Assembly (NCBI RefSeq): GCF_022867865.1
Contig: NZ_JALIEC010000005.1
Coordinates: 124,001-188,000 of the forward strand
DNA from: Phaeobacter sp. J2-8
GTDB taxonomy: Bacteria; Pseudomonadota; Alphaproteobacteria; Rhodobacterales; Rhodobacteraceae
DNA length: 64,000 bases
Reading direction: 5' to 3'
Of the stretch, positions 53,957 through 64,000 are shown piece by piece. A program made the position numbers and the translations under genes. Numbering within the stretch: position 1 is the first letter of the stretch; each line of letters begins with the position of its first letter. Below the pieces are notes generated by a model. The model did no database searches, was not told the DNA's origin, and was given only the letters and a program-made list of their open reading frames with translations.

Positions 53957-54766
53957 TCAGGCACCAGAGCGCAGGATCTGATCCATCGACATTGACGGCT
54001 GGGCGCACCCCGCCTCTCCGACGATTTTCGCAGGCACACCGGCCACGGTCTTGCAGGCCGGAACCTCGCTCAGCACCACCGAACCGGCAGCAATGCGCGA
54101 GCAATTTCCAATGTGAATATTGCCCAGAACCTTTGCCCCGGCGCCAATCAACACACCGTCGCCAATCTTTGGATGGCGGTCCTGTTCTTCCTTGCCCGTG
54201 CCGCCCAGCGTCACGGAATGCAGCATCGACACATTGTCGCCCACCACCGCCGTTTCACCGATCACAATCGAATGGGCATGGTCGATCATGATACCCTTGC
54301 CGATTTTTGCGGCCGGATGAATATCAATCCCAAACACTTCGGACACCCGCATCTGAATGAAATACGCCAGATCACGCCGCCCCGCGGTCCAAAGCCAATG
54401 CCCGATGCGATAGGCTTGGATCGCCTGAAATCCCTTGAAAAACAGCACCGGCTGCAAATAGCGATGGCACGCCGGGTCGCGGTCATACACGGCGGCAATA
54501 TCTGCCCGTGCCGAACGCCCGATTGTCGGATCAGAGGCATAGGCCTCGTCACAGATTTCCCGCAGGATCTGTTCCGACATTTCGCCCGAAGCGAGCTTTA
54601 GCGAATTACGGTAACTCAGCGCGCGTTCCAGTGACGGATGGTGCAGCACGCTTTGATGGATCAAACCGCCCAACAGCGGTTCATCTTTCACGGCCTGTTC
54701 CGCTTCTTCCAGAATCTGCGCCCAAATTGGGTCGACTTGGGCTAACTGCGTTTGTGTCCGGGCCAT
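53957..54766 (-). CDS. cysE: Serine O-acetyltransferase
   Basis: The product has 269 residues. The N-terminal helical domain (VDPIWAQILEEAEQAVKDE) is followed by a left-handed beta-helix with hexapeptide repeats (IHPAAKIGKGIMIDHAHSIV, IGETAVVGDNVSML, PKIGDGVLIGAGAKVLGNI). It makes O-acetylserine for cysteine synthesis and is probably feedback-inhibited by cysteine. ATG 54766 follows GAGGA. An upstream in-frame extension to 54895 is not family-like. Confidence 0.96.
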   Translation of the reverse strand: MARTQTQLAQVDPIWAQILEEAEQAVKDEPLLGGLIHQSVLHHPSLERALSYRNSLKLASGEMSEQILREICDEAYASDPTIGRSARADIAAVYDRDPACHRYLQPVLFFKGFQAIQAYRIGHWLWTAGRRDLAYFIQMRVSEVFGIDIHPAAKIGKGIMIDHAHSIVIGETAVVGDNVSMLHSVTLGGTGKEEQDRHPKIGDGVLIGAGAKVLGNIHIGNCSRIAAGSVVLSEVPACKTVAGVPAKIVGEAGCAQPSMSMDQILRSGA

Positions 54767-54909
54767 GGTATCCTCGCATCGCGGTGTCGGGTGTGAGGTA
54801 TACCATGTTCGCGGCGTCTGCCAAACGCAATCCTGTGATGAGGAAGCGAAGGAATTGGAATGGGTTCCTTGTGGGGTGGATCCAATGTTGCGCATGGATC
54901 TGCTTCACC

Positions 54910-54955
54910 CTGGGGGCCAGCCCCCAGACCCCCGGGATATTTTGGCCAAGAAGAA
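54910..54955 (+). repeat. Dispersed intergenic element, copy E
   Basis: Identical to copies A and C except for one base (TTTTGGCC for TTTTGACC): hairpin CTGGGGG-CCAG-CCCCCAG, then ACCCCCGGGATATTTTG and CCAAGAAGAA. It lies upstream of cysE and beyond the end of the gene at 55007-55300. The gap 54767-55006 holds no other feature I can support. Confidence 0.8.
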
Positions 54956-55006
54956 TGCCAAGCGACGTTTACAAGGGGCGCAGGTTGGAGATGGGGCCAA
55001 CCACGG

Positions 55007-55300
55007 TTAGCGCCGCCGTGTGGATCGCCATTCCAGAAGCAGGTGAAACACCGTTTCCAGACAACGACAATAAGCGTCTTCCCCAAGCGGGGGTTCTGCT
55101 GCCAAGGGCCGCACACGGGCGGCGGCCATCAGCGTGCCATTGCCCCAATCGCGATGTGCGCGACCGAGGCGTTTGGCATAGCGGTCTGCGAAGTCCGCCT
55201 CTTCTATCATCCGCCGGCAGAGGCCTTCGCGCGCCTCTGCCGGCACCATCAACATGGCGCGGGCGGCCGCCGTCACATCGCCATGAAGAACCGGTCGCAT
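55007..55300 (-). CDS. Small conserved protein next to the gene transfer agent genes
   Basis: The product has 97 residues, starting MRPVLHGDVTAAARAMLMV. It is helical, with GLCRRMIEEADFADRYAKRLGR and a Trp/Arg end. I recognise it as a conserved hypothetical that follows GTA gp15 in Rhodobacterales (DUF7742-like, from memory); the role is unknown. It starts 4 bp after the gp15 stop, so it is the last gene of the GTA transcript or is at least coupled to it. Confidence 0.7.
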   Translation of the reverse strand: MRPVLHGDVTAAARAMLMVPAEAREGLCRRMIEEADFADRYAKRLGRAHRDWGNGTLMAAARVRPLAAEPPLGEDAYCRCLETVFHLLLEWRSTRRR

Positions 55301-55304
55301 CCGA

Positions 55305-58300
55305 TCACACCTGCCAGCGGGCAAAAGGCCCCGGACCATAGACATCCGAAATCTGTGCCACCTCGATGTGGACACCAGGTCCAGCACCATCAGCAGATTG
55401 CATCGCTGCGGAATAGGCAAACATCGGTGTGTTCAATGTCACCTCGCGCAGCACGGTGATCCCGTCCATCACACGCAACAGATAGCTTTCGTTTGCCTCG
55501 CCCAGGGGCACTTCGGCAAGATCCCAGCTGTCACCGCCGATCCGCGTGCGCCGCACCCATGTCAGGGTCAGATCGCCAGCGGACCAGACCCCTTTCAGAT
55601 GCACCGGGGAATAGGGCCGCAACCCATTGCCATCAAACGCATGCACCTCGTGTTCATACGACGGATCACTGACCGGCCGTTGCGCCGGACCCACGCGATA
55701 GTGCCGCGCAATGCGCCGGGCCGAGGACGGCAGGTTGATCTGTTCCGGCGCACCGTCGATCAGAACCACATATGCGCCCTCAGGCCAAGATGCAGGCATG
55801 AAGGCATCCGTGCCCAATTGCCCGCGCAGCCGATGGCTGAGCATCCAGGTGTCGACATCGACAAGCTCTGCATCGCGAAACTGAAACAACTCCCATCCGC
55901 CGGGTGTCCCATCACCGATTGCACAGAGGTTGCCACCGGCCAGCAGCGCGTCATCGTCAATCGAACTGAACGCGCCAGTGGTCAATTTCACCTGCACCGC
56001 ATCGCCGCGATCAATGATGCCCGACGGGGCGGAAAACAACGGGGTTTGCGTGACGCCGAATGTGGCGCGGGCGGCAAAGATGTCGTTCAACTGATAGTTG
56101 GAATCCTGTGCGGAATCATACAGCGCGACACTGCCAGGCCAGGGTTTGGCGGCCACTGCCAGATGCGGCGCATGCGGCACCTCGTCACCAGTCAGAAGTG
56201 GCAGATCCAGGAACAATGGCAACACCGGCACCGGCGGCACAAAGGCAGCCACAGTTGCGGGATCATCCTCGATTTCCACCGGCTGATAGACTTCTGGTTC
56301 TATGCGCACCGCCTCGACGATCTGTTCGCGACCGACCTCGATCCGGTCGACCCGATACAGCGCCCGCCCAGCGCCCTCTGGCAGGGACACGACATCGCCA
56401 GCCGCCACATCAAGCCGCGACGGCGGCAGGGCAAAACGCGCCTGTTCACGTGCCACCCGCGCCTCGGCCAGCCAGCGTTCCACGGTTTGACGCCCCTCGG
56501 CCCGTGTCAGCACCAACGGCACTTCGCTGCGCGACACCGTATGGGTGGCCTCGTCCGGCATCACCGCTTCTTCGGCGATGGTTTCATAGTCCCCATCCGA
56601 CTGGATGAAATCCAGACGCACCCGCCCCGCCATCTCGGCCTCGGAGCTGCGGTTCTGGGACAGGGTGCCATCCAGATCGTCATTTATCGCCAGAAGATCG
56701 GCATCAATCTCAATCGCGTCACGCCCAGCGCGCATGATGAAATGCAACACCCCCGCGCGTTCCACGGCATCAAAACCGAAATGCAACATCAGGGGCTGCA
56801 ACAGGGTTCGCATATCGCCGATATTGCCGCTGGTATAGCCGCGAATGAACCCGCGCAGATCAGACACATCAAAGGCGGGCACACCGGCGTCCAAGCAGAT
56901 TTCCTCGACCAGGCGCGCCAAGGACATGGCAGAGGCCCGGCCATTCATCCAATGGCCGCGGGCATAGTTTCCGCTATCGGTCCAAAGAGCTGAATTGGCC
57001 GGGAAATACGGATAGGGCCGCGTATCCCAGGCCCAGACAAAGGCCCGGTCCATGTCGACCATCGCGCCGCCGTATTCCTCGGACACCGGGTTGTTGGTCG
57101 CGTCGCCCCAGTAATCGGTGACCGCGCGCAGATATTGCCGCTGGATCAGCTCGTCCCGCCGCCCGTCGGAAAACTTTGGCAGGCTGGATTCGCTCGACTT
57201 TGGATCAAGGAACTTATTCGGCTGATTGGTGCCCTTGTCGATCGCAGCACAGCCGAATTCAGTGAACCAGATCGGCTTGCCCTGGGGCACCCATTCGGTG
57301 GCATTGGCCTGGCGTTCACCGGCTATCCGGTTGTGATGCGGGTTGGACCACCAATTGCGGATATCCTTGTACCGATAGATCCACGGCTCGTCATGGGCGC
57401 CATCGGTGATGGGTTCACGCCGTTGCGCGGCCATGGCCTCTGGGGTTGGATAATACCAATCATAGCCCTCGCCCCCCGCCACATTGCCGCGCAGGTAGTC
57501 CAGATTGTAGATCGAGCCAACACCGGCATCCGCATGGTCCTTGCCATCGCGCCAATCCGACAGCGGCATGTAGTTGTCGATCCCGACAAAGTCGATTTCG
57601 CTGTTGGCCCAAAGCGGGTCAAGATGGAACAGCACATCACCAGAGCCATCCTGCGGGTGATAGCCGAAATATTCCGACCAATCCGCCGCATAGCCGATCT
57701 TGGTATTGGGCCCCAGGATCTGGCGCACATCAGCAGCCAGCTGGATCATGGCGGCCACCGCCGGAAATCCCCCGTCCGCGCCGCGAATTTGCGTCAAACC
57801 ACGCATTTCCGAGCCGATACAAAACGCATCCACCCCACCCGACGCCGCGCAAAGCGCCGCGTAATGCAGGATAAACCGGCGATAGCTCCATTCCTGGGGC
57901 CCACTGTAGTCGACAGTGGCATGGATCAGGGTCGGCGTGTTTTTTAGGACATCAAGGATATCTTCATAGACCTCGGTTTCATCCAACACGGTGAAATCGC
58001 CGGGCTGGGCGGTGCCGAAAAACGCGGCGACCTCTGCCTCGGCTGCGGCGGTGCCATCCGTTGACCCGCTCTGGCCCGGTGCTCTTTCGGTGGTGATCCG
58101 TCCACGCCAGGGCAGCACGGGCTGGTCCGACGCATCACTATAGGGATCGGGCAAGCCATTACCGGGCAGCTGATCCATCAGGATGAAGGGATAGAACATC
58201 ACCGATTGCTCGCGCTCTTTCAATGCGCGAATACCTTCCAGCACCGCCCCATCGGAAATGGCACCGCCATAGACCGGCCGGTCCTCGCCGTCGCGCGCCA

Positions 58301-59297
58301 CCAATTCCACTTCGGTGCGCTCCAACCCGGACACCCGCCAGGCCATGCCCTTGCCGTCAAATTCGGATTGTTCGACCTTGGGCTGGATCTGGCACTGACC
58401 AGCGCGCAGATCATTGCCGAACCAGCTGACAATCAGTGATGTCGCGCCCATGTTTGGGCATTCCTGGGTCAACTGATCCAACGAGGTTTCGATATCGCTT
58501 TTGCCCGCCGGGGAATTGACGTTGGCCATACGGAAATCGCCGGGCCCGTATTTGTATTTCACCGGCGTGGTTGCCAGCGCATATTCACCGGTGCCGGGCA
58601 CAAGCGCGACCCCGCGCAGGTTATGCGGCACTTCGGCGGCGCCGTCGGTGACCGAGACTTGCGCCGGTTTGGACACTTCAAAGCTGAACTGCGGCACGCG
58701 ATTGCCAAATTCCGAAAGGTCCAGATCCTCCAGCACGACATAGGCCGTGCCGCGATAGGCCGGCACCGCCCCCGGGCCTTCGATGGCCTCGATCTTGGGG
58801 TCGGGCAACTGATCTTCGCTGCCGGTATAGACCCGCAGGTTCAGGCTATCGCGCGGCACTTCCTCGCCATCGGCCCAGATCCGACCGATATTGGTGATCT
58901 CACCCTCGCAGACCGCAATCGCCAAGTTGACGGTATAGGAATAGGTGGTGGTCTTGACCTTGGGTTGTGACGGCGCGCCTTTGCCGCTGCCACCGCTGGT
59001 CTTGGTATTCACATGTTCGGTGAAATTGCTGGCCCATAGCACATGACCGGCCATGCGCATCCGGCCATAGCTGCGGGCAATGGGGGCGCCTTCACCGGCG
59101 CGGTTGACGCGGAACCGATCAATGCGGTTTCCTTCAACCACCACTTCGGATCCCTGCCCCATCAGGCGCTGATCAATGGTGCGCCCCACGGTTGCGCCAA
59201 TGAAACGGCCAACGGCCGTCAGGCTCAGACCCAAAAAGGTGCCACCGACAGCGCTGCCAAGCGCCGCGCCCGCTGCGGAAAGTACAATCGTCGCCAT
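55305..59297 (-). CDS. GTA gp15, baseplate megatron / host-specificity protein
   Basis: The product has 1330 residues, intact. A hydrophobic start (GAALGSAVGGTFLGLSLTAV) precedes tail-hub domains. A GTA TIM-barrel-like domain spans about residues 430-750 (FCIGSEMRGLTQIRG, FVGIDNYMPLSDW, WFTEFGCAAIDKGTNQPNKF), and a phage-tail-3 domain follows (residues about 770-930, GFDAVERAGVLHFIMRAGRD). In the Rhodobacter capsulatus particle this protein forms the tail tip that contacts the recipient cell. It is the largest protein in the window. Confidence 0.93.
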   Translation of the reverse strand: MATIVLSAAGAALGSAVGGTFLGLSLTAVGRFIGATVGRTIDQRLMGQGSEVVVEGNRIDRFRVNRAGEGAPIARSYGRMRMAGHVLWASNFTEHVNTKTSGGSGKGAPSQPKVKTTTYSYTVNLAIAVCEGEITNIGRIWADGEEVPRDSLNLRVYTGSEDQLPDPKIEAIEGPGAVPAYRGTAYVVLEDLDLSEFGNRVPQFSFEVSKPAQVSVTDGAAEVPHNLRGVALVPGTGEYALATTPVKYKYGPGDFRMANVNSPAGKSDIETSLDQLTQECPNMGATSLIVSWFGNDLRAGQCQIQPKVEQSEFDGKGMAWRVSGLERTEVELVARDGEDRPVYGGAISDGAVLEGIRALKEREQSVMFYPFILMDQLPGNGLPDPYSDASDQPVLPWRGRITTERAPGQSGSTDGTAAAEAEVAAFFGTAQPGDFTVLDETEVYEDILDVLKNTPTLIHATVDYSGPQEWSYRRFILHYAALCAASGGVDAFCIGSEMRGLTQIRGADGGFPAVAAMIQLAADVRQILGPNTKIGYAADWSEYFGYHPQDGSGDVLFHLDPLWANSEIDFVGIDNYMPLSDWRDGKDHADAGVGSIYNLDYLRGNVAGGEGYDWYYPTPEAMAAQRREPITDGAHDEPWIYRYKDIRNWWSNPHHNRIAGERQANATEWVPQGKPIWFTEFGCAAIDKGTNQPNKFLDPKSSESSLPKFSDGRRDELIQRQYLRAVTDYWGDATNNPVSEEYGGAMVDMDRAFVWAWDTRPYPYFPANSALWTDSGNYARGHWMNGRASAMSLARLVEEICLDAGVPAFDVSDLRGFIRGYTSGNIGDMRTLLQPLMLHFGFDAVERAGVLHFIMRAGRDAIEIDADLLAINDDLDGTLSQNRSSEAEMAGRVRLDFIQSDGDYETIAEEAVMPDEATHTVSRSEVPLVLTRAEGRQTVERWLAEARVAREQARFALPPSRLDVAAGDVVSLPEGAGRALYRVDRIEVGREQIVEAVRIEPEVYQPVEIEDDPATVAAFVPPVPVLPLFLDLPLLTGDEVPHAPHLAVAAKPWPGSVALYDSAQDSNYQLNDIFAARATFGVTQTPLFSAPSGIIDRGDAVQVKLTTGAFSSIDDDALLAGGNLCAIGDGTPGGWELFQFRDAELVDVDTWMLSHRLRGQLGTDAFMPASWPEGAYVVLIDGAPEQINLPSSARRIARHYRVGPAQRPVSDPSYEHEVHAFDGNGLRPYSPVHLKGVWSAGDLTLTWVRRTRIGGDSWDLAEVPLGEANESYLLRVMDGITVLREVTLNTPMFAYSAAMQSADGAGPGVHIEVAQISDVYGPGPFARWQV

Positions 59298-59309
59298 CAG
59301 ATGGACTCC

Positions 59310-59744
59310 TTATGGAAATGCAAATCGCGCCACGATGCGCCGCGCCCAGGGGGCGCTCAGTGGGCTTTCGGTAACACCATGGCCGGTATAGGAATGGATG
59401 AAACTGGCGTTGGCGCCGACCTGCGCCTGAATCCCCAGATGTTTGGCCACCGCCCCATCCCGCATGCGAAACAACAGCACATCACCGGCCCCGGCGCTGT
59501 CCAGAGGTTTCGGGCAAAGATGCTGCGCCGCCGCGCGCCACAGCCGTTCCTGCCCCTGCGGTTCAGACCAATCGCGGGTATACGCAGGCGGGATTTCCGG
59601 CTCTGCGCCCTGAACCTCCCGCCAAACCCCGCGCAACAGGCCCAGACAATCGCACCCGGCACCGCGCACCGAGGTTTGATGCAGATAGGGCGTGCCGATC
59701 CAGCCGCGGGCGGCCGCGACCACTTTGGATGCCGGTATAGTCAT
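59310..59744 (-). CDS. GTA gp14, NlpC/P60 cell-wall peptidase
   Basis: The product has 144 residues. The catalytic Cys is in GAGCDCLGLLRGVW (Cys33 by position) and the His in VAKHLGIQAQ (His102), as in NlpC/P60 enzymes. In GTA it is thought to cut peptidoglycan during DNA delivery. It lies 12 bp before gp15 and its start overlaps the gp13 stop by four bases. Confidence 0.92.
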   Translation of the reverse strand: MTIPASKVVAAARGWIGTPYLHQTSVRGAGCDCLGLLRGVWREVQGAEPEIPPAYTRDWSEPQGQERLWRAAAQHLCPKPLDSAGAGDVLLFRMRDGAVAKHLGIQAQVGANASFIHSYTGHGVTESPLSAPWARRIVARFAFP

Positions 59745-60625
59745 CGGCGGCTCCCCCCCGACTTGCTCCCGGCACGCGCCGGGTTGACCAGCAGCCAGTC
59801 ATCTTCCGGCACATCGGGGAAGCCGCGATAATTCAACAGATTGTCAAATTTGAAGCGGCATGTTTCCAACCGCTTGTCACAGCCTGCGGTCAATCTTACC
59901 TGGTCGCCGACCATGATCGGCAATCGCAGCGGTTCCCACAATTCAATCTGCTGGCCATCCTCGATCAACTCGTCGCGTTTGACCGCACCGAACAATCCCG
60001 CCGCTGCCCCGCTGAGCACATCCATGCGCCCGCGTCGGAACCATGCGGGTTCAAACGCGCCCCCGGCGTCAATGACCACGGTCGAAGTTTCCTCGACAGC
60101 CAGAACACTGCCTTCCCAGGTGAACCCCGGCGTCGACAGATCGAACTTGCAACCGCCATCCCCCAGGACCGCCGTGCAAGGTGTTTGGAACACCCGTCCG
60201 AACGGACGGTTCAACGCCTCGGACAAACCACGCAACTCGGCTTCGAACGCGCCGTCAATGCGCCGCATCTCACCGATGGTGCCGCGAAACTGTAGGTGGC
60301 GCTGGCTCACATCCTGCCAATTGACCAACCAGGCCCGCACTTCTGCCCCGTCAAAGCGACCAGCAAGGATATCAGCCTCGGTGATGGCGGCATCTGACAG
60401 CGCACCTACGGCCTCGGAGTTGTCAACAGACAGCCCGGTCCCCTGTTGCAATGCCATTGCGCTCAGACCGCTGTCAGCGCGGAATGTCATGCCATCGAAA
60501 CTCAATTCGCGGTCATGATCGGTAAAGCCAAACGCGGTGCCATCCGCACGGTTGATCGCCCAGGCACGGCAAAGCGTCGTATGACCGCTTTCCAAATGTG
60601 CCTTCATCTCCCCAGAAAGTGTCAT
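59741..60625 (-). CDS. GTA gp13, baseplate hub protein (DUF2163)
   Basis: The product has 294 residues of the DUF2163/BR0599 family: TTLCRAWAINRADGTAFGFTDHDREL at the start and GCDKRLETCRFKFDNLLNYRGFP at the end, with paired cysteines (CTAVLGDGGCKFDL) that may bind a metal or iron-sulfur cluster as described for the GTA hub. It shares one base with gp12. Confidence 0.92.
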   Translation of the reverse strand: MTLSGEMKAHLESGHTTLCRAWAINRADGTAFGFTDHDRELSFDGMTFRADSGLSAMALQQGTGLSVDNSEAVGALSDAAITEADILAGRFDGAEVRAWLVNWQDVSQRHLQFRGTIGEMRRIDGAFEAELRGLSEALNRPFGRVFQTPCTAVLGDGGCKFDLSTPGFTWEGSVLAVEETSTVVIDAGGAFEPAWFRRGRMDVLSGAAAGLFGAVKRDELIEDGQQIELWEPLRLPIMVGDQVRLTAGCDKRLETCRFKFDNLLNYRGFPDVPEDDWLLVNPARAGSKSGGSRR

Positions 60626-61257
60626 CAGATCCGCACCTCGACCACTGGCACATTCGGCACTTCACCCGCCTGGAAAGAGGACACCGACGTGGCAATCCGA
60701 TCCGTGTCAAACCGCACCGGCACGTCAAATTCGAACCCCGCGGTGATTTCCGCATCCTGAAGCGGCGGGCTGGCAAAGGTCACAATGCCGGTTGTCTCGT
60801 CCACATCCCAGTGGATGCTTTCCTGCAACTCGTCACCTTGAACACCAATCCGCACAGAGCCCTGCACAGGCTTGGTCACCACACGCGCATATTCCGCCGC
60901 ACCAGAGCGATAGGTCTTGATCAGCTGATAATGAACAGAGGCCCCATCGCCCAGCGCAATCACCTGATCGCGATAGGCGACTTCCTGACTTGCGGGACAG
61001 GTCTTGTAGTCCGACCAATCCTTCCAGCGGAACCCGAACAGCTGACCACGGCGAGCCTCGAAAAAGCCGATCATCGTCTCGATGTCGTCCAGCGACCGCA
61101 GGCCAAGCCCGGCGTCATAGCGGTGGCGCGACTGCGACCACGGCGTGTTGCGTTCTTCGAACCCATTGGCCAGCGTGACCACGTCGGTCCGCCGCTCTGG
61201 TCCGCCGACCGAGCCAAAGCTCAGGTTGGCGGGAAACCGCACTTCATGAAATGACAT
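60625..61257 (-). CDS. GTA gp12, distal tail protein (DUF2460)
   Basis: The product has 210 residues of the TIGR02217/DUF2460 family: MSFHEVRFPANLSFGSVGGPERRTDVV and the end VPVRFDTDRIATSVSSFQAG. It connects the tail tube to the hub. It ends on the base that begins gp13. Confidence 0.93.
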   Translation of the reverse strand: MSFHEVRFPANLSFGSVGGPERRTDVVTLANGFEERNTPWSQSRHRYDAGLGLRSLDDIETMIGFFEARRGQLFGFRWKDWSDYKTCPASQEVAYRDQVIALGDGASVHYQLIKTYRSGAAEYARVVTKPVQGSVRIGVQGDELQESIHWDVDETTGIVTFASPPLQDAEITAGFEFDVPVRFDTDRIATSVSSFQAGEVPNVPVVEVRI

Positions 61258-61272
61258 GGAACTTCCCTCCGT

Positions 61273-61923
61273 TTACCGGTTGCGACCGCCGCGCGCCAAC
61301 ACGCGGCTCATCTGTGCGGCAATCTGGCTTTGACTGCGCTGGAACCCTTGGGCGTCCGGGGTCTGGATATTCATCACCACATTGATGGGTCGGCTCCCGC
61401 CCGAGGCCTGCACGCCCAGCTTGCCGTTCGGCCCGCGCGCCAGTGGCATGATCGCTTCGGGACCGGCCTCGCCCATCAATCCCATACCGCCACGCATCGG
61501 AAAATGCACCGGCCCGTTGACCACCCCACCATTGGCAAAAGGCGTCACACGGCCCTGGGTGAACGCACCGCCCTTCTCGAACGGCATCAGACCATTGACG
61601 ACACCGCCCAACATCGAGCCGAAATGATCCGTCACCGGTTTCATCGCGGCGTTATAGGCCGCATTGATCATGGACTGACCGATCACGCCCAGCGCCTCGG
61701 AAAACTTCATCCCGTCCAGCACCACACCGTCGATTGCCTTGCGCAGCCCCCCCGACAGGGTCGAACTCAGAACCCGCGCCTGATTGCCCGTCGCCGAAAA
61801 CGTCTGGTGAATACGCTTCAACTCGGTATCAAATCCCGCCGCCAGCGTGCTGGCAGAGCCAAGCGATTGCGCCAGCGCATCGACCTGAAGGTCGAGATCA
61901 TCCAATCCGTTCACATCTTCCAT
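61273..61923 (-). CDS. GTA gp11, tail tape-measure protein
   Basis: The product has 216 residues. An N-terminal helical part (DLDLQVDALAQSLGSASTL) leads to a hydrophobic middle (KFSEALGVIGQSMINAAYNA) and a Gly-rich end (GGVVNGPVHFPMRGGMGLMG). The short length fits the short tail of GTA particles; phage tape-measure proteins are usually much longer. Confidence 0.87.
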   Translation of the reverse strand: MEDVNGLDDLDLQVDALAQSLGSASTLAAGFDTELKRIHQTFSATGNQARVLSSTLSGGLRKAIDGVVLDGMKFSEALGVIGQSMINAAYNAAMKPVTDHFGSMLGGVVNGLMPFEKGGAFTQGRVTPFANGGVVNGPVHFPMRGGMGLMGEAGPEAIMPLARGPNGKLGVQASGGSRPINVVMNIQTPDAQGFQRSQSQIAAQMSRVLARGGRNR

Positions 61924-61927
61924 CGCC

Positions 61928-62152
61928 TTATCCTTTCCCTTGGTCTGTCCCCGTCAAATCCGGTCCCGTCCCGTCGTCGGGAAAGGCCGCAATCAACTGG
62001 TCCAGCCGGTCACGGGTCAGCGGCGCATTGCCGCCGCCGACCCCAAGCATCAGCATCAATTCCGCCAGCGTCAGCGCCCAGAATTCCGCCGGGCGCAGAC
62101 CCAAACCGCGCAGACCCGCCGTCATCAATCGGGGCCAGTTGATCCGGTTCAC
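61928..62152 (-). CDS. GTA small tail-assembly protein (Rcc01693-like)
   Basis: The product has 74 residues: WPRLMTAGLRGLGLRPAEFW, then ALTLAELMLMLGVGG. This is the small conserved frame between gp10 and gp11 of Rhodobacterales GTA clusters, related to phage tail-assembly chaperones. It overlaps gp10 by four bases. Confidence 0.8.
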   Translation of the reverse strand: MNRINWPRLMTAGLRGLGLRPAEFWALTLAELMLMLGVGGGNAPLTRDRLDQLIAAFPDDGTGPDLTGTDQGKG

Positions 62153-62472
62153 ACCGCCTCCTCAGGCACCATGAAGGCCCGTGCCAACAATTCTGCCGCG
62201 ACCTTGGCCGCGCCAATCGGCCCCCCCGCGATCTCGGCCTGAACCAGATCGCGGGGCCCACCGGACCATCCGCCGCCGCGCAACCCCGCCACAATCAGCG
62301 CCAGCACATCGCGACCCGAAAACTGACCGGTCTCGAAACGCTCCACCAGATCCACCAGTGATCCGGTCTCCAGCGCCTCTTCCAGCTCGGCCAATGCACC
62401 CAGGGTCAGCTTGAGCACATGCGCCGTGCCGTCGATGGTCAGCATGACCTCGCCCCTCCACGGATTGGTCAT
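62149..62472 (-). CDS. GTA gp10, tail-assembly protein
   Basis: The product has 107 residues: MTNPWRGEVMLTIDGTAHVL, TLGALAELEEALETGSL, GRDVLALIVAGLRGGG. It fits the GTA gp10 family (GTA-type tail chaperone). It starts 3 bp after the gp9 stop and overlaps the next gene by four bases. Confidence 0.87.
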   Translation of the reverse strand: MTNPWRGEVMLTIDGTAHVLKLTLGALAELEEALETGSLVDLVERFETGQFSGRDVLALIVAGLRGGGWSGGPRDLVQAEIAGGPIGAAKVAAELLARAFMVPEEAV

Positions 62473-62475
62473 TGC

Positions 62476-62889
62476 TTACAGCGCCACGAAGGTCAGCTCA
62501 CCCGCAGAGGCGAGTGAAAGCTCATATGTGGCTTCGCCATTATGGCTACCGGCATATTCCAGCCCGGTGACCTGAAACGGGCCTTCGATGGTGCCGAAAT
62601 CCGGCACAATCACCTGAAAGTCCGGCACTTCGCCGTCAAAGAAGATCTGACGCGCGCGTTCATCCGTGGCGTCGTCCTTGAAAATCCCGGCACCGGAGAT
62701 TGCTGCGCTTTTCACGCCAGCCCCGCCAAGAAGCTCACGCCAGCCCCCCGCACTCTCAAGCGATGTGACATCCACCGCCTCTGCATTGAAACTGATACGT
62801 GTGGCGCGCAGCCCCACCATGGTTTCGAATTGCCCAGCGCCGCTGAGATCGACCTTGATCAAAAGGTCCTTACCGTTTTGTGCAGCCAT
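62476..62889 (-). CDS. GTA gp9, major tail (tube) protein
   Basis: The product has 137 residues of the TP901-1-type major tail protein family: GKDLLIKVDLSGAGQFETMVG, VDVTSLESAGGWRELLGGAG, and a beta-rich end YELSLASAGELTF. It polymerises into the tail tube. Confidence 0.92.
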   Translation of the reverse strand: MAAQNGKDLLIKVDLSGAGQFETMVGLRATRISFNAEAVDVTSLESAGGWRELLGGAGVKSAAISGAGIFKDDATDERARQIFFDGEVPDFQVIVPDFGTIEGPFQVTGLEYAGSHNGEATYELSLASAGELTFVAL

Positions 62890-62913
62890 GTTACGTACTC
62901 CGCTTTATAAGGT

Positions 62914-63324
62914 TCAGTTGTCTTCGACACGGGCGCGAAAGATCATATCGATCCGCCGCGTTCCGGCTGTGGTGTCTCGTGTGGCCTTGGCCCTCTGAAA
63001 CCAGAGCCCGACCAAACTTCCGCGCGACAGGGCAAGGGCGGGATCGTCCAAAGCATCGCTCACCGCGACCGCCGCTTCTTTGGCTTGTTGAAATCCCGGC
63101 GCATCGGTGATGATGGAAATTCCGATGTCATGTGCCGCGCCGTTGCCGGTCTGATCCGACCGGTCGCGTGCGGTTTCCGTGCCCAGCGTCACATAGATCG
63201 ACGGCAGGCTGCCGGATGGGATCGCATCGTAAATCGCACTGCCGACAATCGCGCCAAGCGCCGCGTCAGCCGACAGATGTTGATAAAGTGCCGTCTGCAA
63301 TGCAACGGCCACCGCGTAACTCAT
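62914..63324 (-). CDS. GTA gp8, tail terminator (DUF3168)
   Basis: The product has 136 residues of the DUF3168 family: MSYAVAVALQTALYQHLSAD, then IYDAIPSGSLPSIYVTLGTE. It caps the tail at its junction with the head. ATG 63324 overlaps the gp7 stop by four bases. Frames extending further upstream are shadows of gp7. Confidence 0.9.
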   Translation of the reverse strand: MSYAVAVALQTALYQHLSADAALGAIVGSAIYDAIPSGSLPSIYVTLGTETARDRSDQTGNGAAHDIGISIITDAPGFQQAKEAAVAVSDALDDPALALSRGSLVGLWFQRAKATRDTTAGTRRIDMIFRARVEDN

Positions 63325-63659
63325 GGTGTCAGCTCCTCTTCGGTGAAACAAATCAGATGGCGCGCGCCGGGGTCGCGTTCGGCGACCGCCTCGATACGCC
63401 AGACGCGGGGGCCCTCGCGGAAACGCTGTCCCGCCGCGGGGCGTGCCGGATCGCCCATCGGGGCGGCACGCACGATCATGCGATAGGCCGTCACCGACAC
63501 CGGCGCCGCAGCCCCACGTGTCGCGCGCCCGCTTCGCGCCGATACATCCGCCCAGATCGTGCCCTGCGGCATCCACATCCGGTCAAAGCCACCGGCCCCA
63601 TCCGGCACATCCTGTGCAGTCTCCAGCACCAGAGCGCGGTTCAATCGTGGCGTGCTCAT
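63321..63659 (-). CDS. GTA gp7, head-tail stopper protein
   Basis: The product has 112 residues of the phage head-tail joining group: LNRALVLETAQDVPDGAGGFDRMW, GTIWADVSARSGR, and the end RHLICFTEEE. It overlaps gp6 and gp8 by four bases each. Confidence 0.9.
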   Translation of the reverse strand: MSTPRLNRALVLETAQDVPDGAGGFDRMWMPQGTIWADVSARSGRATRGAAAPVSVTAYRMIVRAAPMGDPARPAAGQRFREGPRVWRIEAVAERDPGARHLICFTEEELTP

Positions 63660-64000
63660 GCTCTGCCCCCTGTCAGACCGACCCGCATCATCCGATAGCG
63701 TTCGATCAAAGAGGTGACACCAAACGGCATACAGCCCTGGCCCAATGCGGTCTCGTCGCGGTACTCATAGTAATGCGCCGCCAGCAGCATCACCGCCTGC
63801 CCCAAATCGGCTGGCAGCCCCGCCCAGTCCGGCGCATATCCGGCGGTAAAGCGGACAACCGCGCGCCCATTGGTCGCGATGGTCGGAAGACAACTTCCCC
63901 GCGCCGCCAATTGCGGACGCTGCGAATCTTCGATCAACCGATAGACAGCGGGATCGACAATTGTGCTTTGGTCATCGCCATCCAACAAGGCGACCTCGGT
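63656..64000 (-). CDS. GTA gp6, head-tail adaptor (partial at window end)
   Basis: The frame is open to base 64000, so the N terminus lies outside. The 114 residues present include VDPAVYRLIEDSQRP, RAVVRFTAGYAPDWAGLPAD and AVMLLAAHYYEYRDET, the usual end of gp6-like head-tail connectors. The capsid, protease, portal and terminase genes (gp5 to gp1) should lie beyond the window to the right. Confidence 0.9.
   Translation of the reverse strand, partial: TEVALLDGDDQSTIVDPAVYRLIEDSQRPQLAARGSCLPTIATNGRAVVRFTAGYAPDWAGLPADLGQAVMLLAAHYYEYRDETALGQGCMPFGVTSLIERYRMMRVGLTGGRA

Follow-up and report, generated by a model that had tools for sequence, protein, structure and literature searches.

The window analysed here, a stretch of 64,000 nucleotides from Phaeobacter sp. 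J2-8 (positions 124,001 to 188,000 of contig NZ_JALIEC010000005.1), ends in the genes of a gene transfer agent (GTA). With a probability of roughly 0.9, we conclude that it holds the tail half of a complete cluster of the Rhodobacter capsulatus type (RcGTA) in its usual place, and that relatives often lose this cluster by a deletion of many origins that joins the terminase gene gp2 (TerL) to the megatron gene gp15. We give about even odds to the wider proposition that GTAs of alphaproteobacteria have repeatedly been switched off by a codon-exact excision of ~11.5 kb leaving a TerL-N::megatron-C gene, either because the chimera is selected (e.g. as a defence or interference factor of non-producers) or through a dedicated rearrangement at catalytic-Glu codons. 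The cluster in the window is itself intact and an ordinary representative of a known kind. RcGTA is expressed in a small fraction of the population, and its small tailed particle packages ~4 kb of random host DNA.

An intact cluster in the window

Together with the adjoining flank, positions 55007 to 64000 form a complete R. capsulatus-type cluster in which gp1 to gp15 are open and in order, followed by g16 and cysE. The first-pass annotation, made from the letters alone, had claimed the order gp6 to gp15 without breaks, and both the open frames and the family models bear this out: all of these genes lie on the minus strand, each in an open reading frame with a single terminal stop. In RcGTA, gp12 to gp15 make up the baseplate. 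The features are as follows.

63656..64000, minus strand: gp6, head-tail adaptor, 3' part, the whole gene extending into the flank (TIGR02215, 191 bits)
63321..63659, minus strand: gp7, stopper or head completion protein (PF05521)
62914..63324, minus strand: gp8, tail terminator (PF11367, E 1.5e-30)
62476..62889, minus strand: gp9, tail tube (PF06199, TIGR02126)
62149..62472, minus strand: gp10, tail assembly (PF11836)
61928..62152, minus strand: gp10.1, tail assembly chaperone with a GTG start (PF09550, TIGR02216)
61273..61923, minus strand: gp11, short tape measure (NF058675 RcGTA_tape, 336.2 bits, cut-off 220)
60625..61257, minus strand: gp12, distal tail protein (TIGR02217, PF09343)
59741..60625, minus strand: gp13, baseplate hub (TIGR02218, PF09931)
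59310..59744, minus strand: gp14, NlpC/P60 cell-wall peptidase (TIGR02219, PF00877)
55305..59297, minus strand: gp15, megatron, baseplate multidomain protein (NF048004 GTA_megatron, 1894.5 bits, cut-off 800; PF13547, PF13550, PF23666)
57258..57260, minus strand: Glu680 codon (GAA) of gp15 in the context WFTEFGC, the entry point into gp15 in fused relatives
55007..55300, minus strand: g16, homologue of rcc01699, DUF7742, last gene of the unit (PF24891, E 2.4e-37; PMC9552610)
53957..54766, minus strand: cysE, serine acetyltransferase, downstream neighbour (TIGR01172, 230.3 bits; PF06426)

The same annotation had named loss of the terminase, portal or capsid genes beside the window as the outcome that would tell against an intact element, and had pointed to gp1 to gp5 past the right edge. 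All five are open and in order: in profile searches gp5 (capsid), gp4 (protease), gp3 (portal) and gp2 (TerL) match their families, and the name gp1 rests on position and on likeness to the gene that relatives have there. Beyond gp1 lie what we take, from their sequences, to be mltG and fabF, with matches at the same place in relatives, and the cluster thus has its usual position, fabF – mltG – gp1 to gp15 – g16 – cysE. The genome contains a single tape match and a single megatron match, and the structural set is full and in RcGTA order (terminase, portal, protease, capsid, adaptor, stopper, tube, tape, baseplate, megatron). The possibility of particle production, raised in the same annotation, is made plausible by this intact gene complement.

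One protein of the genome matches DUF6456, which we take to be the C-terminal domain of the activator GafA; the family is found in 47 of 47 genomes tested, among them genomes without a GTA, and is therefore little informative. That GTA-less genomes retain it points to a function outside GTA control, or to losses of recent date. The term DUF6456 does not occur in PMC11150451.

A codon-exact TerL-megatron fusion in relatives

Several genera carry one long frame that runs from the start of TerL to the end of the megatron. It came to light while g16 was being traced in GTA-less genomes: the GTA proteins of this genome were compared by tblastn with 22 loci from relatives, and the frames were then read. 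The fused relatives lack ~11.5 kb, and their TerL continues in frame into gp15, the joint lying between the Walker B Glu of TerL (W-x-D-E; Glu164 of the gp2 query, codon L003:6709) and the TIM-barrel Glu680 of gp15 (W-F-T-E-x-G-C). The resulting chimera is mostly ~830–900 codons long and stands upstream of cysE, and of g16 where that gene is present. Loss of the cluster in relatives often takes this one form, the ~11.5 kb deletion that brings these two Glu codons together.

A strict junction-codon pattern run on GTDB contigs returned 64 loci, from isolates and metagenome-assembled genomes, of which 58 belong to Rhodobacterales groups or unassigned alphaproteobacteria and 6 to Rhizobiales. All 64 read TerL Walker B directly into gp15, although the record of locus L129 contains only 18 residues of the TerL side; the downstream arm is full-length in 46, broken in 3 and cut by the locus end in 15. 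Since this pattern demands the exact joint, 390 genomes were searched with the whole fused protein and the joint unconstrained. At least 18 of these 390 Rhodobacterales genomes are fused, a lower bound because frameshift-split or strongly decayed fusions may escape the search, and the identical codon pair occurs in 18/18 (unconstrained search and earlier loci combined). Both arms are open in 16 of the 18, G110 being included in a recheck. The samples of 390 and 196 genomes used throughout are draws from Rhodobacterales with one genome per species.

Within the 196 set, 25 genomes are tape-negative (20 listed directly, and G145, G151, G160, G163 and G169 by their absence from the tape match list). 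The exact fusion accounts for 11 of them (G002, G007, G009, G027, G074, G078, G079, G082, G110, G111 and G151), and G102 holds a decayed fusion near the site that was not counted as exact. Other deletions or losses, with differing ends in those that were read, are found in G020, G091, G095, G138, G142, G145, G160, G169, G001, G005 and G010; G123 and G163 were left unclassed. The variety of such losses includes a gp2-to-gp15 deletion at a different place in L035 (G169), a deletion from gp3 to the last part of gp15 in L169 (G377), a 1083-codon frame with TerL and the end of gp15 in L198 (G001), and, in L178 (G305), a deletion that lies between gp2 and the beginning of gp15. A search of the literature on GTA loss and fusions, covering titles and abstract openings with most full texts outside its scope, returned no such fusion.

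Repeated origin of the deletion

We conclude that the deletion arose repeatedly: fused rows stand among intact congeners, both arms are native to the host lineage, no clear sharing of junction DNA was seen and no carrier was found. In trees of the C-terminal arm of gp15 (gp15C), fused rows are scattered among intact congeners, and the label changes needed rose to 16, 26 and 29 in successive trees as rows were added, mostly intact congeners, with at least 13, 15 and 20 forced by well-supported branches. If loss is irreversible, the best (last) tree calls for 37 origins, or at least 25 when only branches of support ≥95 are used; these trees were built from gp15C alone by a quick search, and the origin counts may be inflated by gene exchange. 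With the exception of L056, each row has 350 or more aligned residues of gp15C, and the numbers of fused and intact rows in four successive trees were 50/26, 59/40, 58/49 and 57/49, the decayed L062 being counted as fused in the first three; L101 and L163, both in the second, are the same genome. The 6 Rhizobiales loci were excluded from the later trees, the permutation test, the native-arm counts and the counts of nonsynonymous and synonymous change (N/S), three of them being included in the first tree. L178, which keeps a whole gp15C in a deleted cluster, served as an intact row in the gp15C/cysE tree, the residue +1 test and the substitution counts. The cysE query was off frame by two bases, such that its matches still mark cysE DNA while its identities are not protein identities, and the cysE tree is weak.

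The residues flanking the joint point the same way. The first residue after the joint (+1) is that of the nearest intact gp15 in 13/13 cases at identity ≥0.80, 22/25 at ≥0.66 and 35/64 overall, an agreement that none of 2000 shuffles reached. On the TerL side, the residue preceding Asp-Glu is that of the nearest intact TerL in 22/25 cases (0/2000 shuffles) and in 10/11 at ≥0.80 (2/2000). Both arms therefore track the local intact genes to within about one residue of the joint. Among fused Ruegeria the synonymous positions around the joint differ, and closely related sets of intact and fused species exist, e.g. L110/L153 and L133/L171.

Explanations for the recurrent joint

Sequence identity between the two sites offers little help. 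Both sites were located in 20 intact clusters (5 more were skipped, their site motif being unmatched); in these 20 the exact homology through the Glu codon spans 2–8 nt, and each cluster contains between 859 and 254,507 better 21-mer gp2/gp15 pairs. A homology-driven deletion was rejected on this trivial homology at the joint, and a plain microhomology hotspot does not account for the site. Large deletions should be difficult for a GTA to mend and may for that reason be favoured over point mutations, though this would not single out the one joint.

Selection could act on the outcome: many GTA deletions would arise, and the in-frame chimera would be kept for a function such as blocking packaging or re-infection, or keeping downstream genes expressed. 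We regard this as possible, at somewhat less than even odds. The frames that remain open on both arms in 16 of the 18 exact-joint genomes and the full-length downstream arms in 46 of the 64 pattern loci are consistent with it, as is the invariance of the Walker A and Walker B residues across 39 aligned fused proteins. With trimmed alignment ends and systematically chosen trios, the TerL N-terminal arm (TerL-N) shows no relaxation on fused branches (50/370 vs 58/351, p 0.35); an apparently stronger constraint on those branches (24/236 vs 58/183, p 1e-5) was withdrawn, being lost after that trimming and trio choice. The N/S of fused-fused near pairs likewise lies within the range of intact pairs, but low values may just reflect very recent deletions. 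Moreover, the exactness of the codon pair exceeds what a loosely defined function would need, and neither the disorder modelled at the joint nor the slight loss of constraint in gp15C (both given below) is what selection would lead one to expect, unless they reflect the youth of the alleles.

In a sequence-specific process, a single nuclease or recombinase would act at the two sites, which have the codon pattern TGG-N6-GAR-NNN-G in common, and the resulting ends would be joined; the alleles left behind would be of recent origin and for the most part neutral or mildly deleterious. Such a process would fit a joint that is identical, with no inserted bases, in members of two orders, the native arms, the W--E--(A/G) codons common to both sites and the scattered, tip-like distribution. 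We give it slightly lower odds than selection: the Trp is missing at some intact gp15 sites (L070, L155), the homology amounts to exact runs of 2–8 nt, and we know of no enzyme of such a cut-and-join kind, none having been searched for.

Horizontal spread of a fused allele of single origin, by homologous recombination in the arms, is improbable. The identical joint could be read in its favour, as could the enrichment of some genera (5/24 in g22, which holds Ruegeria, and 3/8 in g8, vs 18/390 overall) and the greater likeness of the first 20 codons after the joint in fused-fused than in fused-intact comparisons within some genera. Yet a permutation test over 363 pairs gave no clear excess at the joint (ten codons after, synonymous, 269/500; ten before, 35/500), four further bins among 30 tests fell at ≤26/500 (4, 7, 11 and 26) with no trend toward the joint, and the adherence of residue +1 to the local gp15 largely refutes spread. 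As for vehicles, the exact pattern occurs in 0 viral contigs, 0/16 plasmid records cover 80% of the fused protein, and phage matches are all below 60% identity, with 2/193 covering ≥80% (these two were not read further). Junction-tract spread and mobile carriers were rejected on the permutation, residue +1 and viral, plasmid and phage results. Finally, an assembly artefact is very improbable: most genomes are draft assemblies, but the fusion recurs across numerous independent projects and in assemblies of few contigs (one in G002, two each in G074 and G009), no collapsible repeat lies at the joint, and none of the 11 genomes of the 196 set with the exact fusion has the tape gene.

Several observations weigh against the reading given at the outset, in addition to the possible inflation of the origin counts. 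Neither selection nor cut-and-join readily accounts for breakpoints that are identical yet lack homology. The AlphaFold2 model of the chimera is disordered in the stretch after the joint (mean predicted local distance difference test, pLDDT, 73.9; predicted template modelling score 0.44), and a new folded domain at the joint was rejected on this ground. Nonsynonymous change in gp15C is slightly higher on fused branches (466/1668 vs 359/1644, p 0.0018); the corresponding null with intact focal rows gave 702/2400 vs 632/2425 (p 0.063). In the intact cluster itself, gp1 has no Pfam or NCBIfam family match.

g16, the small gene after the megatron

The first-pass annotation had also drawn attention to the small gene after gp15, as a possibly unstudied member of the unit. 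Its start 4 bp after the gp15 stop and its length of 97 residues stand, whereas the gene has already been published as g16 (rcc01699; PMC9552610). It matches PF24891 (DUF7742) at 127.4 bits against a cut-off of 27, and DUF7742 by that name is not mentioned in the literature searched. In R. capsulatus, the parts of the work covered describe g16 as starting 3 bases after g15 and cotranscribed with the RcGTA genes by reverse transcription PCR; its deletion left the phenotypes tested unaffected and its overexpression raised exopolysaccharide (EPS) (PMC9552610, Sherlock and Fogg 2022).

The proposed co-occurrence with gp15 holds in one direction. g16 was detected in 117/196 Rhodobacterales genomes, and in 115 of these 117 the megatron lies beside it on the same contig and strand, the exceptions being G134, with g16 on another contig, and G142, with no megatron. 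Conversely, g16 has no detectable copy in 79/196 genomes, including 77 of the 193 that bear a megatron, and it also occurs in genomes with a damaged GTA or none. Its frequency is the same without the tape gene (15/25) as with it (102/171; Fisher p 1.0), and a strict dependence of g16 on the GTA was rejected accordingly. In G169 (L035) it persists beside only the last part of the megatron and part of TerL. G142 (L034) has no particle gene detected between mltG and cysE, yet g16 remains beside cysE. g16 thus belongs to the unit, but its retention is not tied to that of the particle genes: in lineages that have it, g16 is mostly retained after deletion of the particle genes, and so its role need not depend on particles. 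A counterexample to such retention is G010, where tape, megatron and g16 are all missing though the congener G043 has g16.

The gap between gp15 and g16, computed by hand from match coordinates and then tallied, is ≤114 bp in 98/115 genomes and 714–738 bp in 17/115. In two cases read, a DUF2793 gene of ~235 residues fills it (L036:661-1371 and L039:559-1266), possibly a receptor-binding or tailspike gene inside the cluster. What appears to be new on g16 is its presence without particle genes, its absence in 79/196 genomes and the gap variant of ~720 bp.

The AlphaFold2 model of g16 is confident (pLDDT 96.8) and helical, and a Foldseek search with it gave no match at E 0.001. The best second-look structure match (VIA) was to SleB, 4fet_A (Z 5.7, root-mean-square deviation 3.1, 75 aligned), within the range of common helical arrangements. 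A SleB-type lytic transglycosylase was not adopted as the reading of g16 on so weak a fold likeness. A scan of window positions 54600–55500 found no terminator- or promoter-like site. Between g16 and cysE, at 54910–54927, a GC-rich inverted repeat without a T run (CTGGGGG, CCCCCAG) was seen by eye and missed by the terminator scan.

Implications

These results touch the question of what maintains, in bacteria, a gene cluster that is lethal to the cells expressing it. A loss that is common, identical and precisely located is a marker for GTA non-producers, and the fusion offers sets of close intact and fused species. It also poses a molecular puzzle: an 11.5-kb deletion is inferred to have arisen at least 25 times at a single codon pair that offers no homology. 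By the same token, a terminase or megatron match alone should not be taken to indicate a functional GTA. The recurrent codon-exact TerL-megatron deletion and the occurrence of g16 without a GTA merit specialist attention; the cluster itself and g16 were already known.

Comparison with known systems

GTA-minus mutants and cluster deletion have been discussed by Redfield and Soucy 2018 (PMC6209664), in passages of which those covered contain no recurrent identical deletion or TerL-megatron fusion. Incomplete RcGTA-like clusters have been called abundant (PMC9765227), with no fusion mentioned in the passages covered. As far as the covered parts of PMC9552610 describe RcGTA (rcc01682-rcc01699, then cysE1, rcc01700), the cluster of Phaeobacter sp. 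J2-8 has the same order of gp1 to gp15, g16 and cysE, and its tape and megatron proteins pass the cut-offs of the respective RcGTA models. The spacing differs slightly: g16 follows gp15 after 3 bp in R. capsulatus and 4 bp here, and cysE overlaps g16 by 59 bp in R. capsulatus whereas here it starts 240 bp past the end of g16. g16 itself occupies the same place as rcc01699, and shares with it a weak likeness to the SleB fold, seen here with 4fet_A and in that paper with 4F55.

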